A DNA stretch of 27,240 nt from a virus: IMG/VR virus record IMGVR_UViG_3300017605_000022, positions 1 through 27,240 of that record; one strand, 5' to 3'. Numbering within the stretch: position 1 is the stretch's first letter; each line of letters begins with the position of its first letter. A model generated the notes under the pieces. That model worked only from the letters and a program-made list of their open reading frames with translations. It did no database searches and was not told the origin of the DNA. Shown piece after piece: positions 7,953 through 24,422 of this stretch. The translations under genes were made by a program, and so were the position numbers.

Positions 7953-10267
7953 GCGGCGCAGTTCGAGAAACTACGAAATACTTTGACTTCGAGATTCCCC
8001 AATTCGACTTTCCGGGTTGGCACGTCTACTACGATCGTAATATTAAGACGGTCGATACGATCTTGTATCTAATGACGGGTACGGATAGCCTTAAAGGTAT
8101 CTGGAAGAACAACGAATATTACAATGTAGGTGATCGTGTTGTTGACGTTGATGTGGCCTTCGCATTTGAGTGCTTCGTTGCACATCTTAGCCCTCCTGCT
8201 CCTACTACATTCGCACAGTCACGCGCATTACATCCTGACTACTGGCACGCTATCGACTTCATCCAAGCCCTTAGTGGCACTTCATCTACGGCAGTTACTA
8301 TCGGTCTAGGAACGAAGGTATTTCAAACACAGACTGGCCGCGTCTTTACTCCCGGTGCGAAGATCATCATTAATAGTGCCGCTAATCCCACCGTAGATTA
8401 CATGTGGGGCGCGATCATCTCTTATAGCGGTAATACATTAACAGTAGATGTCGATGTGATTGGCGGATCAGGAACACACAGCGATTGGTTGTTGTCCGTT
8501 AGTGGTGAAAGAGGTGTACAGGGAGAGATTGGGCCGCAAGGTATTCAAGGTCCACAAGGCATTCAGGGTGAAATTGGTCCTGTTGGTCCTACAGGCCCAC
8601 AAGGTATTATAAATGAAGCGCCAACTGATGGTGCAGTTTATGGACGTAGAGGCAGTACCGCTACATGGGCGACCGTCTCCGCCATCAATGCTGCAACTCT
8701 ACCGAATACTCCCGCAGGTAACATTGCAGCAACGAACGTACAAGCAGCGATTAACGAACTCGATACTGAGAAGGTAGCTAAAGCGGGAGATACAATGACG
8801 GGGCACTTGGCGCTCCCCATTAATCCCGGTTCGACTAATGCAGTCCGTAAAGACTATGTTGATGCTGCCGATGCTTCCATGGCATCTAGTATTGGTACGA
8901 AAGCCTCGACTATTTACGTCGATCAGCAAGACGCCTTAAAGGTATCTAAAGCTGGTGACATAATGTCAGGGCCATTAACTCTCACTACTTTGTCTCTAGC
9001 TGCTCCGGGAGCCTATTCCGATATTTCTTTCTATCAAAGTTACGCAGCTACTGGATATATACGTTGGCTTATGAGAGCGGCCGATCCCGGTCCTAATAAC
9101 TTCGAACTTCATCGATATAATGATGCTGGGACATATCTCGGCATGCCGCTAAGTATCAATCGTTTAACGGGAATTGCAACATTTAGTCACGACCTTATTA
9201 CTAACGGTATGCTTAGGACTTCAGGTTCTATAGCAGTTGGCAGTAATGTGTCCAGTGGTCTGATGAGCGATGGGACTAATCTTCTACTTAGAGCATTAGG
9301 TGCTGGTCCCATCTATATGCATTCTGCTAACGGCTCAATATATTACGCACACTTTGCTAATGGAGGATCTAATATAAATGGTAGCTTAAGTGTGGCTACT
9401 AGTTTAACTGTTGGTACAGATATCAGTGCTAATATCATTACATCTCGTTATAGTGATGGACTAAGAATATCCGTACCGTCATACTGGCACGCACGTTTCG
9501 TCTCTACAGTAGAGGGTGTGCGTCAATGGTCTATGGGTACACTGAATTGGGGCGCATTCGGCATTTGGGATGAGAATGCTGGTCGTCAATGCATGAGCAT
9601 CGATACTAATGGTAACACTAGCTTCTATGGTCAAGTAACCGCTACACAATTCAACGGTACGCTTAGCGGCAACTGTACGGGTAGTTCTAGTTCCGCAAGT
9701 AACTTCAACAATGGCACTATATATAGTGACGGTGATTCTATTTTTTCTTCTGGAGGTTTCTATATACGTGTTGCGGGTGGTGGTGAGTATACTTGGTTTG
9801 ATAGTGGTGGTGGTATTCATCCCGCTAGAGGTATAAAGGGTAGACAAGGCTACAATGGTCCAGGTGGTGGAAATCTTTACAACTTCGATTGGCAAAGTAC
9901 ACTAAATGCATGGATCGATACTAGCAATTGGGGCTCTGTGCTCAATGCACATTCTGATTATCGGCTGAAGAAAGATGTCGTTGATCTCGGATCGATGTGG
10001 GATATCGTTAAGACACTTCGACCAATTAAATATACTCCTTCTGATTGGGAGCCCTATTCTGTATCAAGTGACGAAGAAAGATGGGGCTTCATTGCTCACG
10101 AATTACAAGAAGCAATGATCCCATTCGCATCTTCGGGCATCAAAGATGATACAGGTGCGCCTCAACAACCTAATATAATGGTAACGTTAGCAGCAATTAC
10201 TAAGGCACTACAGGAAGCGATGACCCGTATTGAAGCATTGGAGGCTAATCTTGCTACAGCAAAATGA
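7949..10267 (+). CDS. Tail fibre with collagen repeats and S74 autocleaving chaperone
   Basis: A 772-residue receptor-binding tail fibre. In order: an N-terminal virion-anchoring part; a carbohydrate-binding-like module (~48-103, with Y-N-V-G-D-R-V, F-E-C and a closing D-Y-W); eleven Gly-X-Y triplets (~186-219); two fibre repeats with K-A-G-D-T-M-T-G and K-A-G-D-I-M-S-G followed by a Y-V-D motif; a long beta-rich, Gly/Ser-rich shaft and tip; and a C-terminal peptidase S74 intramolecular chaperone starting at Ser669 (S-D-Y-R-L-K-K-D). In that family the Ser, together with a Lys, makes the cut that releases the trimerisation chaperone. The last residues are a heptad-like helix (ALEANLATAK). The start overlaps the nozzle stop (ATGA) with AGGAAGAG upstream. 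Known family; host receptor unknown. Confidence 0.88.
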   Translation: MSGAVRETTKYFDFEIPQFDFPGWHVYYDRNIKTVDTILYLMTGTDSLKGIWKNNEYYNVGDRVVDVDVAFAFECFVAHLSPPAPTTFAQSRALHPDYWHAIDFIQALSGTSSTAVTIGLGTKVFQTQTGRVFTPGAKIIINSAANPTVDYMWGAIISYSGNTLTVDVDVIGGSGTHSDWLLSVSGERGVQGEIGPQGIQGPQGIQGEIGPVGPTGPQGIINEAPTDGAVYGRRGSTATWATVSAINAATLPNTPAGNIAATNVQAAINELDTEKVAKAGDTMTGHLALPINPGSTNAVRKDYVDAADASMASSIGTKASTIYVDQQDALKVSKAGDIMSGPLTLTTLSLAAPGAYSDISFYQSYAATGYIRWLMRAADPGPNNFELHRYNDAGTYLGMPLSINRLTGIATFSHDLITNGMLRTSGSIAVGSNVSSGLMSDGTNLLLRALGAGPIYMHSANGSIYYAHFANGGSNINGSLSVATSLTVGTDISANIITSRYSDGLRISVPSYWHARFVSTVEGVRQWSMGTLNWGAFGIWDENAGRQCMSIDTNGNTSFYGQVTATQFNGTLSGNCTGSSSSASNFNNGTIYSDGDSIFSSGGFYIRVAGGGEYTWFDSGGGIHPARGIKGRQGYNGPGGGNLYNFDWQSTLNAWIDTSNWGSVLNAHSDYRLKKDVVDLGSMWDIVKTLRPIKYTPSDWEPYSVSSDEERWGFIAHELQEAMIPFASSGIKDDTGAPQQPNIMVTLAAITKALQEAMTRIEALEANLATAK
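8504..8605 (+). repeat. Collagen-like Gly-X-Y repeat in the fibre gene
   Basis: Eleven consecutive Gly-X-Y triplets, including GPQ, GIQ, GEI and GPV units, within the tail-fibre coding sequence. At DNA level the units are similar but not identical. Such runs form a triple-helical rod in trimeric phage fibres and can vary in length by recombination between units. Confidence 0.85.
9953..10264 (+). other. Region encoding S74 autocleaving chaperone domain
   Basis: Encodes the last ~104 residues of the fibre, from Ser669. The S-D-x-R-x-K-K-D opening, the 'RWGFIAHELQEA' segment and the closing helix are the hallmarks of the peptidase S74 / intramolecular chaperone. In known members, self-cleavage before the Ser removes it from the mature fibre, so the mature product is expected to end near residue 668. 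Confidence 0.75.
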
Positions 10268-10829
10268 AATAGTCACACATAAACAGCGTCGTCTCGAACG
10301 CCTTAAGCGCGCGGGATCGTGGTATGACATCCGCGAGATGCTGACTAAAGAAGACTTATACGTATTAGAACCTCTCTTCCGTAAGGCTCATGCTGAACTC
10401 GTCCCTCATCAAGACTTCGACATGAAAGCTATACTTAGACATGCCGATTATAAGATGAGTGATCCCGAAAGGATGACGTATAATGGATGGGCCGCTTATA
10501 GAGAAGGCGAGCCTGTTGGGTTCTTCATCGGTTATGTGAATAGTTTCTTCATCTCCACCGACAAGTTCGCTATAAGCAGTGTATGGTACGTCGATAAACA
10601 ATACAGGGGGAGTCCAGTCGCCTTTCTATTACTAAAGCAGTTCCTACAATGGGGCGCTTTACGAGGCTGTGTTCGCTTTATCGTAGATATCATCCGCGAT
10701 AAGCACTCCGATAAGCAAGTTCGTCTCTTCGCAAAGATGTCTCAAAAGCTCGGCTTCAGAGAGGCTGGAGCGTATTTTGTAAAGGATGTCAACAATGCTG
10801 CCAGCATGGATGATCAACGATCTTCGTAA
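10251..10829 (+). CDS. GNAT-like acetyltransferase with probable TTG start
   Basis: A 192-residue protein resembling GNAT-fold N-acetyltransferases, which transfer acetyl groups from acetyl-CoA. The core beta strands and acetyl-CoA loop are suggested by GEPVGFFIGYV, SSVWYVDKQYRGSPVAFLLLKQF and 'KLGFREAG'. The canonical R/Q-x-x-G-x-G/A loop is seen only as Y-R-G-S-P-V-A, so CoA binding is plausible, not shown. I place the start at TTG 10251 because GGAGG (10240-10244) sits six bases before it inside the fibre gene; the next ATG (near 10338) has no such site. It overlaps the fibre end by 17 bases. Similar proteins occur beside podovirus tail genes; the target is unknown. Confidence 0.6.
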   Translation: MLQQNEIVTHKQRRLERLKRAGSWYDIREMLTKEDLYVLEPLFRKAHAELVPHQDFDMKAILRHADYKMSDPERMTYNGWAAYREGEPVGFFIGYVNSFFISTDKFAISSVWYVDKQYRGSPVAFLLLKQFLQWGALRGCVRFIVDIIRDKHSDKQVRLFAKMSQKLGFREAGAYFVKDVNNAASMDDQRSS

Positions 10830-16400: not shown

Positions 16401-17732
16401 ACATCAATGGTCCCGTGGTCTAATACTGCACTTCAATCTCTCCGCTACATGAAGCAACGTATACTAGAGAACCCCGCCGAGAACCTAACCCGTCTAGGAT
16501 CGCTAGGCTTCGCATCCATGTGGGCCTACTACATGGTATCTCGCGATCCAGAAGCCAGCGATTGGTTCTTCAATCAACTTCCCAACGACACGCGTGCGCA
16601 ATCAATTCCAATTCCTGACTTCCAACGTTGGGCATCACGCTCTCTCGGCCTCAACATCCCATATGGAAGACCCGACGAGGAATTCACTCTACAACGAATG
16701 CCGCCAGAAGTGATGATGTTCGTCCTTCCAATGCTCCACGGTGCGCGTGCTCTCGGCCTCCTTCCAAGTAAGGATATCGTCGTACCTCCATCTATCAAGG
16801 ACGATATGGCTCACGCGATGGAGCAGACATTCGGTCTCGCCGTTCCTCCAGCAGCTAATGCAATCGCCGCTCAATACGGTAAGAAGATCGAACCGGGTAA
16901 AGCATTCTCAGGAGGATCTATCTTTAACGACATTCGCGACTTCAAGTTCTCAGGAGCTAATGCGGATAAGATGTCTCCGCAATCACGTATCCCTCATGCG
17001 GCTCACGACACTATCAACGCTCTCTTCGGCACCGTCATTGGCACCATGCTCGAAGCAGCCAACTATGGAGACGTTGTAGCTAACGATAGTCGTGGTAGCG
17101 TAACAAAGGGTATTAAGGAAGGCACTGAGAAATTCCTAACTACTCAAGCAGTCAACGCTCCCGGCATCAGTTACATCTGGCCCGATGTCAATCGTCGCTA
17201 CATCTACACTCCCGCAGCGGAGAAGCTACAGAAGGACATGGCTACTCTTAAGCAAGGCGTAACTGCGCAGATGGCTGCTGAGCCGGGATTGCGTCGCGTC
17301 CTACAAGACAATGCTCGTATCAACGCTACAGAGAAGACTGGCGCACTGCCCGGTGCCGTTGTTGGAGCACCTGTTACCGATCCCGACCTTCGTGCAATTA
17401 TGGCACAGGTCTATAAAGGACTACTCACGGGACCATTCCAACAGCTAGAAGAACAGCGCCGTATTGAACGTTCTCGTCATCAATCACTGACGATCGGACC
17501 TAATCCCACTCGCACCGACTCGCCTCTCATGCGCTACAAGATGGCACAAGAACAAGCTAAGAAGGTCAACGATCTTGATCGTCGAATGTATACTTTATAT
17601 CAAGATCAATGGAAGATGGTGGAGTCTTCTCCAAGTGGGATTGCGTTTGCGAAGAAGTATGGTCCACTAACGCCCGAGAATTTGACGAAGGCAATTCAGG
17701 GGTCTGCGCGTGAAGGTGGTCAGCGCCGGTAG
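13431..17732 (+). CDS. Giant polyvalent ejection protein with LPD38-like region (1433 aa)
   Basis: The largest gene in the window, at the end of the structural block, typical for the giant internal virion protein of podoviruses (T7 gp16-like role). The N-terminus has a Gly-rich hydrophobic stretch (residues ~37-58). The ~750-1130 region reads like LPD38, a large polyvalent protein-associated domain seen in phage ejection-type proteins (GWMNPGFALRAS, then SDWFFNQLPNDTRAQSIPIP, then MPPEVMMF). Hydrophobic helices near ~801-828 could be membrane-active. No lysozyme or transglycosylase motif was found, although such giants often carry one. The start is ATG 13431 with only a weak upstream site. 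Its last 167 bases overlap, antisense, the convergent DUF3987-type helicase gene. Confidence 0.65.
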   Translation: MAEEKKIIFDKEGKDTGEAEGPDDSSLKGYAKWMLRQGGIGLADTPGAIAGLYGLGGAVKDYLYDRVDPTYTPEKGFAQNLFDPAGGEEKLKAYNQKVIEDIQRARPDAAPEDVQKRFEEITKHSKRYYEETTPFYRQGLAFARKWGQGTNEFFGDPRLPPERTQADTLMNIVGSAAPTRGIGAVTGATGAVGRGLASVAATKAGRIGLNVAEALTPVTVIPKGATAGEAATRVGANIAIPAAIDQAVRYSKGDPSIVADTVEAAKDLYSSKEDTGKPSVVDAARDIDLRADLNKKDDGSAGVATVGAAGLFATLFGARRLRNVSAGPTTHAMSQAAYPTVNALKMGAAKAGSDVEPFRVMAKEGGLTNDEIDLFMTNIRQNAGNNPIADHRIWYDSKVSPIVEKFARDDPAFQEKFLQHAADADRIRGDTDALARTNDLLTDAQAALTKAQGPRGRSTPARLQELQDEVNTRLAERNARLADVDPNLRYSMMNEDKATVQARLNQSRQDPRIRAVEQQLQRLYDDPFDLAVREGAMSNAEGQRLKLETRMGNYHLTDNPMAQKNFLQRVGTKLMNTTEGHILNTNPEAVLGLYRMANRSKTRKGYQKPDETSIYTNPGQFDVPHPRTNNPRDPFSELKHVDIRVRQAIAHNNARRDYTNMMLGSRNYNPRKLEIVKRIPEKEIPQNIKWVESKVNGTANDRTGYYYTYRERDGGLVLVRHNEKAIHEALKFAPAAVVPIMNQMRKTIQAGTTGWMNPGFALRASVPFDIIIGGVARHSNMAFGPISRLAISTFGYGHPVSRILSAIGAGVDIPYNLILAWPASTARALISEALGNQLAKKWQADLAMNTGTISMIAKAIPGGRQLIGHVADIMSKAYDTSWTNLTKTMKAGHVAGRSDDVLARMNEVNAVIKKRPILRSVGNFYLDMLNVFNDVPKQMALSQNLKLWKKEVAKGRQQSIAMNEKFIADQAAMIGGDMRRVSGSRWVQQFTSMVPWSNTALQSLRYMKQRILENPAENLTRLGSLGFASMWAYYMVSRDPEASDWFFNQLPNDTRAQSIPIPDFQRWASRSLGLNIPYGRPDEEFTLQRMPPEVMMFVLPMLHGARALGLLPSKDIVVPPSIKDDMAHAMEQTFGLAVPPAANAIAAQYGKKIEPGKAFSGGSIFNDIRDFKFSGANADKMSPQSRIPHAAHDTINALFGTVIGTMLEAANYGDVVANDSRGSVTKGIKEGTEKFLTTQAVNAPGISYIWPDVNRRYIYTPAAEKLQKDMATLKQGVTAQMAAEPGLRRVLQDNARINATEKTGALPGAVVGAPVTDPDLRAIMAQVYKGLLTGPFQQLEEQRRIERSRHQSLTIGPNPTRTDSPLMRYKMAQEQAKKVNDLDRRMYTLYQDQWKMVESSPSGIAFAKKYGPLTPENLTKAIQGSAREGGQRR

Positions 17733-18978
17733 ACTTCCCACTCCTTAGCAGTATCTCTTCCCACTTCTGCGGATTAAGTATCTTCGTCGTCGCTACAAAG
17801 TACCGTGATGGACGGCCACTCCTACCCGTGTGCGTCGGTACTATGTACTGCTTAACCGCACCTATATCTACCAACAACTCCATCACCCCATTATACTCTT
17901 GCACGCTAAAGTGATACTTACACTGTACGTAAAGCTCCCAATTCTTAATCCCATTAAGACCACGTTTCAAGAGTGCTTCACGTACTTTATCAAGCCCGTT
18001 TGTAAGTTTAAGATCAAATGCTGCTTGCTTGAATATGCGACTACCAGACTTCTTTGCCCTTGATACAGCATGAAGCGCCAGTTCGACTTCACTAATCCCA
18101 ATTCTGGACTTAAGTTGGCTAAGGGCGAGCGTCCCGGCAAGTCGAAGAATGTGGCTATCTTCGCGGCTTTCAAAGCTACGGAGGTAAGTTTCCGTAGAAT
18201 AGTTCCTAGACCTGTACCAAGCATCAAGAAACTTCTTCGCCTCTTCATCAGGTAAGATTGTCTTAAGTTTAGTGGCGTGTTCTCTAATAGCATTTAAGTA
18301 TTCCTTCGCCGCTTTAACACTGGGCTGGTTTACACTATCGGGCCAGAAGATCAACTTCTTTCGAGCCTCGGAACTAACGAAAATAACGCGCGATGTAAAT
18401 CCTCCCTCGATAACATCTGGGTTAATTGCGCGTATAAGCCATGACGGTGTTGAGCCGGCGATAAACGTGATGAAAGGATTAATGAGAGGTAGGCTTCCAT
18501 AGTTAACACTTCCTCCTCCTTCCCTCTTAACTGGACAATCGTAAAGATCAGTGAGCAAGATGGGCATTCCCATAGAATAGCCTTCTCGCCCGAAGAAGGT
18601 AACAAGCTCGGATATATTAATAACGACATGGCTCTTACCCCTTTCTCCGCTTTGATTAGCCATCATCGTCCATAGCTTCTCAGGCGTCGTCTTATTCTGT
18701 AATACTTCCGCTCCTTCTGGCAGGCATCCCTCTATCATATCATTAGCGAAGTTAATCACGGTAGACTTCCTAGTCATGCCGCTCTCAGCACATATAATTA
18801 CATACCAATTAAAGTAGATAGGTGCTCGTGGACGGTCGATGAAGCAGCTACGACCTATTACCGCACCAACCGTCCACACAGCAGCCCAAAAGTCGTACTC
18901 ACTAGGCGTCTCCTGATCTTTAAGTAAAGACATGAAGAGTTCGATGTACGAATCTTTTGGGCCACTGATACTGAGCAT
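17566..18978 (-). CDS. DUF3987-type phage helicase/ATPase
   Basis: A 470-residue P-loop ATPase, probably the replicative helicase or helicase-primase partner. The Walker A-like loop is E-S-G-M-T-R-K-S-T (residues 65-73), of the G-x-x-R-K-S-T form typical of DUF3987/DUF927-type phage proteins. A Walker B-like segment is at ~118-126 (VVINISELV), with N-I-S-E in place of D-E. The C-terminal part (~350-405) looks like a winged helix (ELYVQCKYHFSVQEYNGVMEL), and after ~415 the tail is Ser/Thr/Pro-rich and low-complexity. The start at 18978 follows the previous gene by 6 bases with GGAG about 15 bases upstream. The low-complexity tail is the part that overlaps antisense with the ejection gene. Confidence 0.7.
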   Translation of the reverse strand: MLSISGPKDSYIELFMSLLKDQETPSEYDFWAAVWTVGAVIGRSCFIDRPRAPIYFNWYVIICAESGMTRKSTVINFANDMIEGCLPEGAEVLQNKTTPEKLWTMMANQSGERGKSHVVINISELVTFFGREGYSMGMPILLTDLYDCPVKREGGGSVNYGSLPLINPFITFIAGSTPSWLIRAINPDVIEGGFTSRVIFVSSEARKKLIFWPDSVNQPSVKAAKEYLNAIREHATKLKTILPDEEAKKFLDAWYRSRNYSTETYLRSFESREDSHILRLAGTLALSQLKSRIGISEVELALHAVSRAKKSGSRIFKQAAFDLKLTNGLDKVREALLKRGLNGIKNWELYVQCKYHFSVQEYNGVMELLVDIGAVKQYIVPTHTGRSGRPSRYFVATTKILNPQKWEEILLRSGKSTGADHLHAQTPELPSSNSRALVDHTSSQTQSHLEKTPPSSIDLDIKYTFDDQDR

Positions 18979-18984
18979 TACTGT

Positions 18985-19281
18985 TTACGCCACTCCGCGT
19001 TGGGCGGCTTCGAGTTGTGCTGCTGCGTCTCTCAATGCTTGCGCCGTATGGTTAAGCAGTTGCGGATCTTTATCTTTCATGTGTCCCGCACTGTTAACTA
19101 CATCAGCGATCTTCCTGTTCATCTCATCGATATAGGCATGTTGTGCTTTCGCGGCCTGATCAGCAGCCCGTTGGTGTTCAGCAGTTACCGGGTCTACTTG
19201 TCCTTGCCGTTTATTCTGCATATCACGATCAGCTTTCTCACGATCAGCTTCTTCTTGTTCGCGTTCGGCTCTCGTAGCCAT
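18985..19281 (-). CDS. Coiled-coil protein with Acb2-like C-terminal hairpin
   Basis: A 98-residue protein with a perfect AGGAGGATAAA start context. The first ~48 residues are very charged and Gln/Ala-rich (likely coiled coil). The C-terminal half (~50-90) can be aligned without gaps to residues 19-58 of the 68-residue Acb2-like neighbour: about 12 of 40 positions are identical, including the D-K-D-P tetrad (70-73 here). This suggests a shared helical hairpin, possibly an old duplication. At DNA level only a 12-base identity is clear (GGATCTTTATCT on the + strand at 19064-19075 and 19382-19393). The M-W-A-V-K end of the neighbour is replaced by Gln and Ala, so nucleotide binding may be lost. 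Function unknown. Confidence 0.6.
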   Translation of the reverse strand: MATRAEREQEEADREKADRDMQNKRQGQVDPVTAEHQRAADQAAKAQHAYIDEMNRKIADVVNSAGHMKDKDPQLLNHTAQALRDAAAQLEAAQRGVA

Positions 19282-19299: not shown

Positions 19300-19506
19300 T
19301 TACTTCTTCTCGCTAGTTACAAGTTTCACGGCCCACATAGCAGCTTCTTCATAAGCAGTAATTGCAAGTGCAGATAGACGTGGATCTTTATCTCTGTGTT
19401 TCTCGGCCAGATCAATCAGATCGGCTGTCGCTTGTTTGAACTCTTCTACATCAGTGTTGGCATTAGGATTAAATGAAAGCCGTACCAAATCTGTACCTTT
19501 AGACAT
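19300..19506 (-). CDS. Acb2/Tad1-like hairpin protein (candidate cyclic-nucleotide sponge)
   Basis: A 68-residue all-helical protein. The sequence pattern S-F-N-P near residues 11-14, a helix D-V-E-E-F-K, then L-A-x-T-x-x-E-E-A-x-M-W-A-V-K (47-61) is what I recall for the Acb2/Tad1 hairpin family. Acb2 of T4-like and Pseudomonas phages binds CBASS cyclic dinucleotides and trinucleotides and blocks defence signalling; Tad1 does so for Thoeris signals. The length is near that of the family. The start has AGGAGATTAGCG before ATG. It lies in a small-gene cluster inside the replication operon, so it would be made early, as an anti-defence protein should be. The assignment is by motif only; ligand and activity are unknown. 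Confidence 0.7.
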   Translation of the reverse strand: MSKGTDLVRLSFNPNANTDVEEFKQATADLIDLAEKHRDKDPRLSALAITAYEEAAMWAVKLVTSEKK

Positions 19507-19508
19507 CG

Positions 19509-19808
19509 CTAATCTCCTATGTGTTTCGCTTCTTCCCCATATATAATTACATCGCTCAACTTCCTTTCAAGTACAGTCGTAATTATAGCCACATATCTCA
19601 CGATCTCATTACACTCCCCTAAGATATCCTCAACGGCATCTTGATAAGCATGTGCTCCTTTATTCTCGTAATCACCTCTAGCAATATGCGCTGCCTCTCT
19701 CGCAAGTCTCCCCGTATGACTACATAACTTCAATGACAGATACTCAATCGACTTACCCTCTGAGAAGACATCACCCTGCCTCTTCTGATAATCATCGAAA
19801 TCATTCAT
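19509..19808 (-). CDS. MazG-like protein with degenerate metal ligands
   Basis: A 99-residue helical protein whose opening (DDYQKRQG), central LSLKL...LAREAAHI and later ILGECNEIVRYVAIITTVL-like helices match the general layout of MazG-like all-alpha NTP pyrophosphatases, which hydrolyse NTPs to NMP and pyrophosphate. The ExxE and ExxD metal-binding motifs of the family are poorly kept: the first appears as H-T-G-R-L-A-R-E and the second as I-L-G-E-C. It may therefore be inactive or not a true MazG. The start overlaps the polymerase stop (ATGA). MazG homologues in phages have been linked to nucleotide pools or (p)ppGpp. Moderate to low certainty. Confidence 0.45.
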   Translation of the reverse strand: MNDFDDYQKRQGDVFSEGKSIEYLSLKLCSHTGRLAREAAHIARGDYENKGAHAYQDAVEDILGECNEIVRYVAIITTVLERKLSDVIIYGEEAKHIGD

Positions 19809-22267
19809 AGCTTCACCTTCTTTATATTACTCCATCGATGTTTCCCTTGCTCATCCGCGACAGAGATGCCCAGATCAGCCGGTATTATCAGTGGCTCGCC
19901 CCGTACTACGATAGGTTGTTCAGCGTATTTCTTCATTATGGCAAGACAGTGTTTCGCCCTCTGTACGGTAGCTAACCCAACTAAGGCATCATGCACGTTC
20001 AGGCATATCCGCTCCCGTCGCCTATCCCACTTGTCATCCTCGTGACATTGATAAATAACTTGACTGACCTTATCTCCAATTGTAGATTGCGGCTTGAAAG
20101 CGACTATCGATTCCAGGCTGTCTTCGGTCAGTCTCTCCATGACGTACAGGCGGCGGCCGAAAGCGTTGTACAACATGCGTGTGGAACGTACCTCCTTCTC
20201 AAGCGTTCCCCACCATCTACGAAGCTCAGGTGTAAGGCGATGATACATGATGTAGCTCTCATGCGCTCGTTGAAGCGGAAGGCCCGTAGTCTCGGCCAGC
20301 CGTTCAGGAGCCATCCTGTAATTCAGTCCATGCCTGCATCTCTTCGCAATGAACCTGATCGTTTTACTTCCGCTTGCATCTTCGTCAGTGGTAGGCACGT
20401 CTTCGTAAGGGACATTGAACATCTCGCTTGCCAAAGCCCTATGACAATCATAGCTTCCATCTAACCTTGCTTTTTCAAATTGTTCTTTCCACTTCGTTAT
20501 CTCCGCATCCCAAGCTACATATCTAGCTTCTGCTTGACTAAGATCAAAGTAAATGAACACATAACCTTCATCTGCAACGAACATTCTCCTTGCCTTTGTA
20601 GGTTGGTTCTGCAAGTTGGCCCCCGTTCCGAGTAGTGTTTGCGCACTGCTTAGTCGACCGGGGGCCGCTTGCGTTCCAGTTTGTCGCCATTCACATCTCA
20701 TCCTTCCATCTTCATCTATATCTGATTCTGCATAAGTACTTAAGAACTTGAATTCTTTGGCCCATTCGTCGTGGAGTCGGAGGACATGTCTAGCGTCTTC
20801 AGAAGTTCTAGGATGTTGACGCATTCGATCTCTATTTGCTGCATCCGTAGATGTACCTCTACCGACGAGTTTAAGTCTGTTGAAGTAGAGTTCCGAACGA
20901 TCTCTTGTCGAACTCGGATTAGGTCTAAATGTATCGTCAGTAGTCGCTTTCGCAACCGCTCCATGAAACTCCTGTAGGAGCCGCGCAACTGTTTCTCGAA
21001 CATCGTGTCTGAACTTGTCCTTCTCTTCTCCATCAATCAGTACTCCTCCCACTGTCATCGTTACTAGATGTTGCTGCAATTTCATTATATGTGTAAAGAA
21101 GAAGTCACTCATATTCTGTTCTTCAAGTTCATGTATTAATCGCTCTTGTACCGCAAGAGTAATGCAAACGTCCTTAACATTGTATTGCCAGAAAAGGTCG
21201 ATGTCACCCTTATCCTTCCATTCGCCTCTCTCGTCTTTATAATACGGATGCGTTGTGTATTGTGTACAAAGATATCCAAGATCATGGGGGATACTGGGAT
21301 ATAAACAATGGTGTGCCAACATGGTGTCGAACCACGCTTTATGTACCCGTATCTTGTCCTTAATCCAGAGCCAATACATGTCAAAGTTCGCGTTCTGAGC
21401 AACAAAACGGAGTCGTTCGTTGGCGAACATTTGTTGCAAGCGCATTCGCAAATCAGCTTCTTCTTCGAGCGAAAAGTAGTCTTCACCCCTGATACCTCTG
21501 AAGGGAATGCAAGTTCCATAATGCTTATCATCGGCCAATCCGACGCAGGCCGTTTCTCCACCTCCCGTTTCGATATCAAAGCTGATAGGTTTTCTAGTAG
21601 CGGAGTAGTACGCAATCCTTTCCTTCGCTCTTTTATAGTCATAGCAAACTTCACCCTTTATCTCATAAGGTTGCCATCGACCACTCATCACCTTAGTCAG
21701 CTTAGCAACATCCATTATAAATGAGATCTCAGTTTTAGGCTCTCTAAGTACAGCGGCGGGATTGTTGGCAACAACTGCTTTGTAAGTACGGGGCTGACTT
21801 GTGGCGAGTGAGAACATCTCAAAGTCAAGTACGCTTCCTCTCCATTTGGTAATACCTTTACGTCCACATAGAGCATCGAGGGCGAGATTGCCAAGCAATA
21901 GCACGTATCGTAAATTGGGTAGGCAAGCGAGTTCCCACTTGAGTAATCCGACCCAATGATCGTATTCAGCTTTAGGCAATTGCACCTTGTCAGCATCTAA
22001 TCCTCCAAATGTTAGCTGTCTCTTAACTACATTCGTTATATAGAAGTTACCCCTCTGCAACTGATGCTTCTTAAGTGCAGACCACAAGAGCGATCCACTA
22101 CCGCCGACTAGCGGCACTTTCAATTGTACTTCCCTACTACCCGGAGCTTCAGCTACAATTGCCACATTAGAATTAAACGTGCCATCACTACCACAATCAA
22201 CTTTAAGATTGATGCTGCGTGCCTTCTTCAGAAACTCCTGCTGTAGTTCCGGCATCGACTTTATCAT
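19805..22267 (-). CDS. Family A DNA polymerase with N-terminal uracil-glycosylase-like domain
   Basis: An 820-residue fusion. Residues ~34-190 resemble family 4/5-type uracil-DNA glycosylase: E40-A-P-G-S, then P-L-V-G-G-S-G, and A-N-N-P-A-A-V-L-R-E-P (167-178), where N169 replaces the His of the usual HP motif. Next comes a 3'-5' exonuclease (D231-I-E233; N-A-N-F-D296; Y362-x3-D366) and a Pol I-type polymerase with motif A (D575-L-S-Q-A-E580), motif B (R638-x3-K642 ... Y650) and motif C (H759-D760-A761, not H-D-E). There is no 5'-nuclease domain. Phage SPO1 is a known case of a UDG-like/PolA fusion. The start is ATG 22267 with GGAGAG upstream, overlapping the previous gene by 65 bases. This is the phage replicase. 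Confidence 0.88.
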   Translation of the reverse strand: MIKSMPELQQEFLKKARSINLKVDCGSDGTFNSNVAIVAEAPGSREVQLKVPLVGGSGSLLWSALKKHQLQRGNFYITNVVKRQLTFGGLDADKVQLPKAEYDHWVGLLKWELACLPNLRYVLLLGNLALDALCGRKGITKWRGSVLDFEMFSLATSQPRTYKAVVANNPAAVLREPKTEISFIMDVAKLTKVMSGRWQPYEIKGEVCYDYKRAKERIAYYSATRKPISFDIETGGGETACVGLADDKHYGTCIPFRGIRGEDYFSLEEEADLRMRLQQMFANERLRFVAQNANFDMYWLWIKDKIRVHKAWFDTMLAHHCLYPSIPHDLGYLCTQYTTHPYYKDERGEWKDKGDIDLFWQYNVKDVCITLAVQERLIHELEEQNMSDFFFTHIMKLQQHLVTMTVGGVLIDGEEKDKFRHDVRETVARLLQEFHGAVAKATTDDTFRPNPSSTRDRSELYFNRLKLVGRGTSTDAANRDRMRQHPRTSEDARHVLRLHDEWAKEFKFLSTYAESDIDEDGRMRCEWRQTGTQAAPGRLSSAQTLLGTGANLQNQPTKARRMFVADEGYVFIYFDLSQAEARYVAWDAEITKWKEQFEKARLDGSYDCHRALASEMFNVPYEDVPTTDEDASGSKTIRFIAKRCRHGLNYRMAPERLAETTGLPLQRAHESYIMYHRLTPELRRWWGTLEKEVRSTRMLYNAFGRRLYVMERLTEDSLESIVAFKPQSTIGDKVSQVIYQCHEDDKWDRRRERICLNVHDALVGLATVQRAKHCLAIMKKYAEQPIVVRGEPLIIPADLGISVADEQGKHRWSNIKKVKL

Positions 22268-22871
22268 CTAATCTCTCCAACCATTCGTTTATAAACAATA
22301 GTACCCGATCGACGGCCGTATCTACATGACCATCGACATTATATACAATCCCATTACATTGACTCAGCCATTCTCTCGTATCATCAAATTCAGTGTCGGT
22401 TCGATAGACACGTATCACCTTAACTCTATCACCATATGCTGCCTTCAACGCCTGAAATTCAGGTTCAACTCCCGCATCAACAAAGTGTATATTAACTTGA
22501 TCTTTAAACTCAAATGGCCGCGATCTACGATGATTACGTTTCAACTCATTCACTAACAGATTACCTAAGAAGTCCTCACCAAATAATGGCCGGGACCAAT
22601 GTACATCTAAATGTTTAATTGCCTCTCTCGGCGTCACACCATTTGGAAGAATAGGATCATCTTTCATCGTCTCATACTGATAACCATTCAATCCGAAGAG
22701 GCCACAGACCATATCTCTAAGCGGCATCACCATCTTCTCATGCCAACCCATTATATGTTTATGATTAAGTATCATATAAGGAGTCGTCGCATGCATCAGC
22801 CTACTTATGATCGTGTCCTTACCGCAATTCGACGGCCCGTTTAGTATAACGACGAGGAATCTTTCGCTCAT
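22203..22871 (-). CDS. Deoxynucleoside monophosphate kinase-like P-loop protein
   Basis: A 222-residue protein with a Walker A motif G-P-S-N-C-G-K-D-T (12-20). Later, F-V-D-A-G-V-E-P-E-F (~130-140) and V-I-R-V-Y-R followed by F-D-D-T-R-E-W-L (~162-169) fit phage deoxynucleotide kinase-like proteins that phosphorylate dNMPs to dNDPs for DNA synthesis. The start has AGGAGAAGAAAC upstream. The C-terminal 18 residues (after NEWLERLDDK) lie in the polymerase overlap, and the first bases overlap the zinc-ribbon gene by 53. The exact substrate cannot be told from sequence. A kinase next to the polymerase fits a nucleotide-supply role. Confidence 0.65.
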   Translation of the reverse strand: MSERFLVVILNGPSNCGKDTIISRLMHATTPYMILNHKHIMGWHEKMVMPLRDMVCGLFGLNGYQYETMKDDPILPNGVTPREAIKHLDVHWSRPLFGEDFLGNLLVNELKRNHRRSRPFEFKDQVNIHFVDAGVEPEFQALKAAYGDRVKVIRVYRTDTEFDDTREWLSQCNGIVYNVDGHVDTAVDRVLLFINEWLERLDDKVDAGTTAGVSEEGTQHQS

Positions 22872-23034
22872 GTTTCTTCTCCTTTACGTATATCCTCTCT
22901 ACTGTAGTGAACCTAAAGCGACAGTTTCCTTGATAGCATTGGCGTCTCCTTCTCCTACCATCTAGTGGAATGGACGGACGCGACTCCAGTACTTTCGTAA
23001 TGGAGCCGCATTTCGGACAAGCAAACTTGCTCAT
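22819..23034 (-). CDS. Zinc-ribbon protein resembling Ogr/Delta or NrdR
   Basis: A 71-residue protein with four Cys in C-P-K-C (near residues 5-8) and C-Y-Q-G-N-C (~33-38), a zinc ribbon. The run CPKCGSITKVLESRPS and RRRRRQC...RFTTVE resembles NrdR (ribonucleotide-reductase repressor) at the RRRR and F-T-T-x-E parts, while the C-x4-C spacing resembles Ogr/Delta phage activators. The ATP-cone of NrdR is absent. The rest is very basic, so nucleic-acid binding is likely. I start at ATG 23034, overlapping the helicase stop (ATGA). An in-frame GTG at 23049 is less likely. A transcription regulator or operator-binding role is inferred. Confidence 0.6.
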   Translation of the reverse strand: MSKFACPKCGSITKVLESRPSIPLDGRRRRRQCYQGNCRFRFTTVERIYVKEKKHERKIPRRYTKRAVELR

Positions 23035-24422
23035 CGTTCCTGTTTCCACATCGAATAATTAAGACTAGTACTATCTGTAACCACAATTACATGTTTTCTA
23101 GCCCTCGTAACCGCCGTATAGAGGTTCTTACGTCCCTGTGACCACTTACTCGACTTATTAAGTACATATATAACTTCTTCGAACTCACTACCTTGACACT
23201 TATGTGTCGTAAGTACGTAACCTAAATCTATCGATTTCAAGAATGAAGTCTGATATACACTAGTGTTATAAGGGTTCTTCTCATGTATCGTATGCGGGAG
23301 GAGTACTTCACGATCACCAAAATCTATAATTACATGCTTGACATTCTCTCCATCCTCAGTCTCTTCAATCTCACTTATCGTACCAATCTCACCATTAAGC
23401 ATCATACATTCATCAAGAGGATCTATATAAGAACTAGGAACAGGATTACCCTGATCATCAAACTCACTATAACGTTCAAAGTAGTCTCTCGTATCATAAA
23501 TATTCTCAGTGCAAACTACCTTGTCACCTAGCCCAAGTGTGATCGGTTTATCTGCATGCCACTTATGTCTAGGAGGATCGAAAGCGCCATAAGGGTCGGG
23601 GTTTAATATACATTGTATCCGTTGATTTAACTCATACGTACCAATCCATCCCCTATGTCCCGTTACAATTATCTGATTCTCAATTTCCTTATACTTATAA
23701 GCCTCATTCCACACATATTCCTCAACTTTATTAGTCGGCTCATTTGTAAAGATGATACGGAAGTCATCACGTTTCGTAGGGATCATTCCTCTCACTATTC
23801 CGCGCGCATTTAAGAATATCCCTGAACCTTCGCCCTGTCTATATACCTTCTCTAGCATTACAGACGGAAAATCCTTAAGCAGCCGCTCAAAGGGCGTATG
23901 CTCGTAGCCATTCTTCTTTATCTTATAGTCTTCGATCGGGGGGAGTTGGTTGATATCTCCGAAGCATCTAAGGAGACCACCATTTGGTAAAGCGTCGATA
24001 AGCTGTCTATTAAGTGCGTGACCAACCATCGCATATTCGTCACAAATAACAACATCATATTTCAATCGTAGATCTTTATGTCTCTTAGGGTGTCCTTCCT
24101 TTAATGGAAGTCCGGTCTTCTCGTCTCTTTCGTGGGGTTTGGGGAATTCCAGTAGCTTGTGGATCGTTATTGCGGGTAGACCAGTAGCTTCACGTATTCT
24201 TCTCGCCGCTTTTCCAGTCGGCGCGCAGCATACAACCTTTCTACCTTGCTCCTGTAGGATTTCCGCAGTACGTTTAATGATCGTCGTCTTACCAGTACCC
24301 GCACTACCCGTAACAGATGCGATGCGGTTGGCAGGGTTAACACAAATTTCAATTGCTTGTCTCTGTTTCTCATCAAATAGTAACTCCAATTCCAAGCCAT
24401 CCTCTACCGGAATGGCTGACAT
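23031..24422 (-). CDS. SF1B helicase (RecD2/Pif1/Dda-like)
   Basis: A 463-residue helicase. Motif I is G-S-A-G-T-G-K-T (39-46), motif II D-E-Y (128-130), motif III G-D-I-N-Q-L-P-P (155-162), motif V T-H-K-C-Q-G-S-E-F and motif VI A-V-T-R-A-R-K-H near the C-terminus. These are the marks of SF1B 5'-3' DNA helicases of the RecD/Dda/Pif1 group, which unwind DNA in replication, recombination and repair. It has no extra N-terminal nuclease-like domain. The start is ATG 24422 with GAGGTGAC a few bases upstream, 28 bases after a terminator's U-tract. It heads the kinase/polymerase part of the operon. Confidence 0.88.
   Translation of the reverse strand: MSAIPVEDGLELELLFDEKQRQAIEICVNPANRIASVTGSAGTGKTTIIKRTAEILQEQGRKVVCCAPTGKAARRIREATGLPAITIHKLLEFPKPHERDEKTGLPLKEGHPKRHKDLRLKYDVVICDEYAMVGHALNRQLIDALPNGGLLRCFGDINQLPPIEDYKIKKNGYEHTPFERLLKDFPSVMLEKVYRQGEGSGIFLNARGIVRGMIPTKRDDFRIIFTNEPTNKVEEYVWNEAYKYKEIENQIIVTGHRGWIGTYELNQRIQCILNPDPYGAFDPPRHKWHADKPITLGLGDKVVCTENIYDTRDYFERYSEFDDQGNPVPSSYIDPLDECMMLNGEIGTISEIEETEDGENVKHVIIDFGDREVLLPHTIHEKNPYNTSVYQTSFLKSIDLGYVLTTHKCQGSEFEEVIYVLNKSSKWSQGRKNLYTAVTRARKHVIVVTDSTSLNYSMWKQER

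Follow-up and report, generated by a model that had tools for sequence, protein, structure and literature searches.

A 68-residue phage protein from a divergent branch of the Acb2/Tad1 hairpin superfamily as a candidate cyclic-nucleotide sponge

Does a 68-residue protein encoded among phage replication genes belong with Acb2 and Tad1, and would it, like them, act as a sponge for the signalling nucleotides of host defense? The window, by which we mean the whole 27,240-base IMG/VR virus record analyzed here, carries structural genes on the plus strand (portal to ~17.7 kb) and replication genes on the minus strand (27.2 to 17.6 kb). The ORF that an earlier note on this DNA had described without giving a strand was found on the minus strand (Table 1), the plus strand at 19300-19506 being non-coding. 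Its product, MSKGTDLVRLSFNPNANTDVEEFKQATADLIDLAEKHRDKDPRLSALAITAYEEAAMWAVKLVTSEKK, contains all of the motifs listed in that note, namely S-F-N-P at the start, a Lys-bearing helix, and L-A-x-T-x-x-E-E-A-x-M-W-A-V-K at the end. The gene lies in a tight operon with the order UDG/exo/PolA polymerase, 99-aa protein, 68-aa protein, 98-aa protein, and DUF3987/primase-helicase-like gene, and its position between polymerase and helicase genes was thus also described correctly, with one small gene on either side. We consider the ORF real and beyond chance on the basis of a Pfam match with E=5.8e-10, its many relatives, a Shine-Dalgarno sequence (AGGAG) upstream of the ATG, and a dN/dS of ~0.08 (dN 0.24; dS saturated) relative to the copy in a related virus, L001. 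The two proteins are 72% identical and 24 of the 43 changed codons are synonymous, and judged from this codon comparison the ORF is under purifying selection.

Table 1. Coordinates of the hairpin gene, its conserved segments, and the adjoining genes in the window.
Feature	Position	Strand	Basis or remark
FNPS-branch Acb2/Tad1-hairpin protein, 68 aa	19300..19506	-	ATG 19504-19506, stop 19300-19302; ORF, Pfam, and AF2
Codons 12-15, F-N-P-N (usually FNPS) loop replacing the Tyr-x-x-Leu of Acb2	19462..19473	-	F and N 100%, P 90%
Codons 18-24, start of helix 1 to K24	19435..19455	-	K 98%; ungapped Pfam register with T4; profile alignment
Codons 43-65, helix 2 signature R43, T50, E53, MWAVK (57-61), T64	19312..19380	-	conservation
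DNA polymerase (UDG-superfamily, 3'-5' exonuclease, and family A polymerase), upstream	19805..22267	-	PF03167, PF01612, PF00476
MazG-like protein without metal-binding residues, 99 aa	19509..19808	-	FNPS start codon 2 nt past its stop
98-aa neighbor, C-terminal half a probable diverged hairpin copy	18985..19281	-	ungapped 37-aa alignment
DUF3987/primase-helicase-like protein, downstream	17566..18978	-	PF13148 29.3 bits; phrog_14296 E=2e-30

The polymerase carries its uracil-DNA-glycosylase (family 4-like) domain at the N-terminus, ahead of the fused exonuclease and family A polymerase, and its closest named phage matches are just ~27% identical. Elsewhere in the window, a 76-aa protein (22819-23049, minus strand) is a lone NrdR-type zinc ribbon (PF22811), too short for the ATP-cone of NrdR, and a GNAT-family acetyltransferase (10230-10829, plus strand) is encoded amid the structural gene cluster.

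The match to the hairpin family anticipated in the earlier note was recovered, with Pfam PF24729 (Acb2/Tad1 hairpin) aligning to residues 16-61 of the 68-aa protein at 39.7 bits, above the curated cut-off of 27 bits. This cut-off was exceeded in 29 of 29 relative contigs tested, FNPS relatives scoring 34-52 bits, whereas the known members T4 Vs.4 (Acb2) and PaP2 Acb2 scored 71 and 66 bits, which argues that the FNPS branch is the more distant. Profile-profile comparison with hhalign joined the FNPS family to a PaP2/T4-type Acb2 set (E=2.1e-8, probability 95%), with the R, T, M, and K/R positions in register, and to an intermediate branch whose members start with Y-R-x-L, hereafter YRxL (E=1.4e-17, probability 99%); a further comparison, of alignments A2 and A5, had a similar outcome (E=3.7e-14). 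FNPS sequences were also recruited by an iterative search seeded with T4, PaP2, and one YRxL protein, and the top PDB match of the FNPS profile, a weak one (E=0.069), was T4 Vs.4, that is, Acb2. A phmmer search of the PDB with the 68-aa protein returned chance G-protein gamma matches only and lends no support to the family case, and nothing convincing was matched in PHROGs, NCBIfam, or PADLOC. In a tree of 71 columns, for which the program warns of long branches, all FNPS sequences fell on one side of a long stem (SH-aLRT 99), separate from Acb2, YRxL, and a siphophage-type branch.

The family is widespread. One query of IMG/VR returned 24 close relatives, an alignment query found FNPS relatives in at least 507 of 599 stretches, and 26 FNPS-type loci were found in bacterial genomes, mostly, going by record titles, of Alphaproteobacteria and Bacteroidota, while the family was absent from all 14 control genomes searched. 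Seven contigs of one Rhodobacteraceae MAG (L038-L044; CATOSB010000001, 8, 9, 10, 17, 24, 29) encode an identical FNPS protein in an ORF with the same limits, as might be seen for a single element that is multi-copy or was assembled more than once. Based on these sequence comparisons, we concluded that the 68-aa protein represents a divergent FNPS branch of the Acb2/Tad1 hairpin superfamily, separate from Acb2 and from Tad1. Because public databases already name the family and its domain, the novelty is modest and the find, though sound, is largely expected.

The helical hairpin was found in the predicted structure as well. An AlphaFold2 single-chain model of the 68-aa protein, built with 20 sequences, had a pLDDT of 95.2 and helices at residues 3-7, 18-36, and 42-63, the last two being long, antiparallel, and modelled at a pLDDT of ~98. 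This predicted fold agrees with the published account of Acb2, in which a short helix accompanies two long ones running antiparallel (PMC10419184), and is without the beta-domain of Tad1. Foldseek searches of BFVD placed at ranks 1-2 two 'Acb2/Tad1 hairpin' proteins, from Providencia phage vB_PstP_PS3 and an uncultured Caudovirales phage (TM 0.91 and 0.89; ranges 0.89-0.93 and 0.66-0.91); these are 33-35% identical to the query and look like FNPS-branch members, and are therefore not independent support. Against the PDB, Foldseek returned no Acb2 or Tad1 for the 68-aa model at E<=10. As a control, we modelled the YRxL paralogue of L023, for which ranks 1-14 were all T4 Vs.4, PaP2 Acb2, or CbTad1, led by 7uq2, 8h2x, and 8h2j, and this recovery of the solved structures makes the negative result for the FNPS model informative. 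Either the FNPS branch packs its hairpin differently, or the single-chain model does so. Acb2 proper was rejected as an identity for the protein given the lack of a PDB fold match, its separate tree branch, and the missing equivalent of a ligand-stacking Phe described below, and Tad1 was rejected for want of a beta-domain, the 68-residue model having no strands. Of the Acb2/Tad1-like identity proposed in the earlier note, membership of the hairpin superfamily therefore stands, and identity with Acb2 or Tad1 themselves does not.

Conservation was measured over 60 non-redundant, diverse FNPS relatives, in which F12, N13, A28, R43, and A48 were 100% conserved, G4, V8, K24, T50, E53, M57, A59, V60, K61, and T64 were 98% conserved, and W58 was 97% conserved, with the Pro of the FN(P) motif at 90%. 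K24 aligned ungapped with K23 of T4 Acb2 and K26 of PaP2 Acb2, R43 with PaP2 Acb2 R67, T50 with T68 (T4) and T74 (PaP2), and K61 with R79/R85 of Acb2; in PaP2 Acb2, we take K26 to be a dinucleotide contact and R67 a cyclic-trinucleotide contact. The last helix of the 68-aa protein carries an Arg-x6-Thr-x2-[E/Q]...Met...[K/R] signature that occurs in the same register in Acb2 and CbTad1. In place of the Acb2 Tyr needed for cyclic dinucleotide binding (Y8 in T4, Y11 in PaP2), FNPS proteins have the invariant Phe12 as a putative equivalent in a loop three residues shorter, and the position of T4 Phe82 is occupied by Thr64, so that the Phe82 feature is absent. In T4 Acb2, a Y8A mutation abolished nucleotide binding (PMC12657218) and also Panoptes activation (PMC12657218, PMC12657230), Phe82 stacks on the ligand base (PMC12657218), and T68M was reported to lower affinity (PMC12657230). 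Stacking by Phe82 is evidently not universal, since PaP2 Acb2 has Ala there.

In the reading we favor, and hold to be probable though well short of secure, the 68-aa protein would be a minimal cyclic-nucleotide sponge for CBASS/Thoeris-type signals. Several copies would assemble, as those of Acb2 and Tad1 do, and pockets would form where the helix ends and loops of separate copies meet. There K24, R43, T50, and K61 might bind both phosphates and bases of a cyclic oligonucleotide, putatively one made by a CBASS- or Thoeris-type system of the host; the signal would thereby be withheld from its effector without being cleaved. Superfamily homology, the predicted hairpin, and the near-invariant polar and aromatic residues aligned with ligand-site residues of Acb2 favor this reading, as does the alignment of T50 with the T68 whose substitution weakens T4 Acb2. 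The gene also behaves as an accessory gene, with a shifting location and, in L023 and L010, a second hairpin gene in tandem. Weighing against a sponge are the negative Foldseek search of the PDB, given its working YRxL control, by which FNPS hairpin packing may differ, and the replacement of Phe82 by Thr64 and of Tyr by a Phe in the shortened loop. As to the ligand, R43 aligns with the presumed trinucleotide-contact Arg of Acb2 and the dinucleotide-binding Tyr region has been rebuilt as F-N-P, and for these two reasons our guess would lean towards cyclic trinucleotides.

The same observations could be read as those of a sponge for some other signal, such as a cADPR isomer, a cyclic mononucleotide, or a host nucleotide, for which the pockets of Acb2 have been rebuilt. 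An FN motif that is invariant and unlike the YRxL of Acb2, a branch well separated on a long stem, and a model that finds no solved Acb2 or Tad1 when the control does would all suit this alternative, and Tad1 demonstrates use of this hairpin for gcADPR. The R43/T50 signature, however, is exactly that of Acb2 and CbTad1, and the separation of the branch comes from the short alignment and the long-branch warning noted above; we regard this alternative as unlikely, if the best of the competitors.

The position of the gene differs among relatives. In L001, whose polymerase is 83% identical, the FNPS gene occupies the same replication neighborhood as in the window, and in L024 it is flanked by SSB-like and RecD-like genes. 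In L016 (1936-2136) and L020 (6001-6201), by contrast, it lies between portal and scaffold, the capsid protein being 52% identical to that of the window, and in L067 (5388-5591) and L077 (6001-6204) it follows the capsid gene and precedes tubA; in these four related podophage-type contigs the hairpin gene is thus inside the head-morphogenesis cluster. Neighbors tallied over a wider set included terminase, portal, head morphogenesis, endolysin, and primase genes, a tally from a crude gene caller that indicates variety and not enrichment. The gene shifts position between related phages and has no fixed link to replication, and such mobility is what accessory, counter-defense-like cargo often displays. 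The early expression that the earlier note had deduced from the location fails as a general inference, since the gene lies in the head cluster of relatives whose head genes are homologous. These locations could instead be taken to mean that the hairpin is an oligomerizing module for phage metabolism or assembly, with a polymerase/primase or head-protein partner, as the replication operon of the window and L001, the portal/scaffold and capsid/tubA sites, and the terminase, portal, head-morphogenesis, and endolysin neighbors would each allow. A location that varies between related phages ill suits a fixed partner in either machine, however, and the characterized members of the superfamily, Acb2 and Tad1, bind nucleotides; we give this explanation rather little credence.

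Over 37 ungapped residues, the 98-aa protein aligned to the 68-aa hairpin with a score of 56, versus 27 +/- 5 for shuffled sequences (0 of 2000 and 2 of 3000 shuffles as high), and the L001 homologue of the 98-aa protein aligned to both 68-aa proteins with 0 of 3000 shuffles as high. The 98-aa protein has a charged N-terminal extension, has lost the equivalents of R43, T50, and MWAVK, and scores 9.7 bits with the FNPS profile; from these alignments it is probably, with moderate support, a diverged tandem copy of the hairpin. L001 keeps both genes with their order swapped, and tandem hairpin genes of different branches occur in L023 (1115-1375 and 1388-1588) and L010 (5676-5996 and 6001-6201). 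A hetero-oligomer of the 68-aa and 98-aa proteins, born of tandem duplication and with the ligand residues gone from the 98-aa copy, would fit their similarity, their joint retention in L001, and the tandem pairs, but seems very improbable to us given the low profile score of the 98-aa protein and the single Pfam-detectable copy in most relatives.

The 99-aa neighbor was considered as another hairpin and rejected, its alignment score falling below the shuffled mean. It aligned with a MazG-like protein of L001 (5017-5676) at a score of 130 versus 28 +/- 5 for shuffled sequences. In the L001 protein, which matches MazG below threshold, the metal-binding residues are retained; in the 99-aa protein they are replaced (GECGE to SHTGR, ECGD to ECNE), suggesting that the MazG-like protein adjoining the hairpin gene is possibly a pseudo-enzyme. 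A MazG-like phage protein, Atd1, has been reported to counter TIR-STING (PMC10419184).

If the FNPS protein binds a defense signal, an abundant branch, present in bacterial genomes as well as in those IMG/VR matches, would become known counter-defense, and the reach of nucleotide sponges would be wider than Acb2 and Tad1. The capsid-adjacent location of the gene in some phages would then make a match between sponge timing and capsid-triggered immunity testable. Thoeris has been reported to sense the major head protein (PMC12043709), and capsid mutations help phages escape CBASS (PMC10419184); expression beside capsid genes would suit such capsid-sensing defenses. A bolder version of the sponge reading, which we offer with considerable doubt, is that FNPS proteins may form a distinct sponge class with its own ligand specificity and subunit packing, in some phages encoded in the head-gene cluster and so made together with the capsid proteins that reportedly trigger CBASS or Thoeris, and sometimes in a tandem pair with a hairpin protein of another branch that would cover two signals.

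Among characterized systems, Acb2 (Pseudomonas phage PaP2/PaMx33 p26; 8H2J, 8IXZ) and T4 Vs.4 (7UQ2) share with the FNPS protein the PF24729 hairpin, with a short N-terminal helix and two antiparallel helices, and have in register the helix-1 Lys, the Arg that opens the last helix (R67 in PaP2), the Thr (T68 in T4), and the M...K/R. Acb2 proper is a homohexamer from which bound cyclic di- and trinucleotides are released intact. Unlike Acb2, the FNPS protein is 68 rather than 88-94 residues long, has the FNPS loop in place of YxxL and a very short inter-helix turn, lacks a Phe82 equivalent and a Foldseek match, and sits on a separate branch. The 'Acb2 homolog 43' (PDB 9PTQ, 76 aa, six chains) is likewise a short hairpin of the same superfamily and is matched by the YRxL and siphophage branches, but it carries the R-E-K-S-x-x-x-T-K-L-E-E-A of another branch and is missed by the FNPS profile. 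Tad1 of a Clostridium botulinum prophage (7UAV, 8SMD, 8KBE-8KBH) differs in having an N-terminal antiparallel beta-sheet domain, absent from the FNPS protein, in a chain of ~125 aa, yet its hairpin, S-R-E-N-A-C-A-L-T-H-V-E-E-A-L-M-W, bears the same Arg/Thr/Glu/Met-Trp signature. The vB_PstP_PS3 and uncultured Caudovirales hairpin proteins, which UniProt already names 'Acb2/Tad1 hairpin domain-containing protein', are apparently members of the same FNPS branch.
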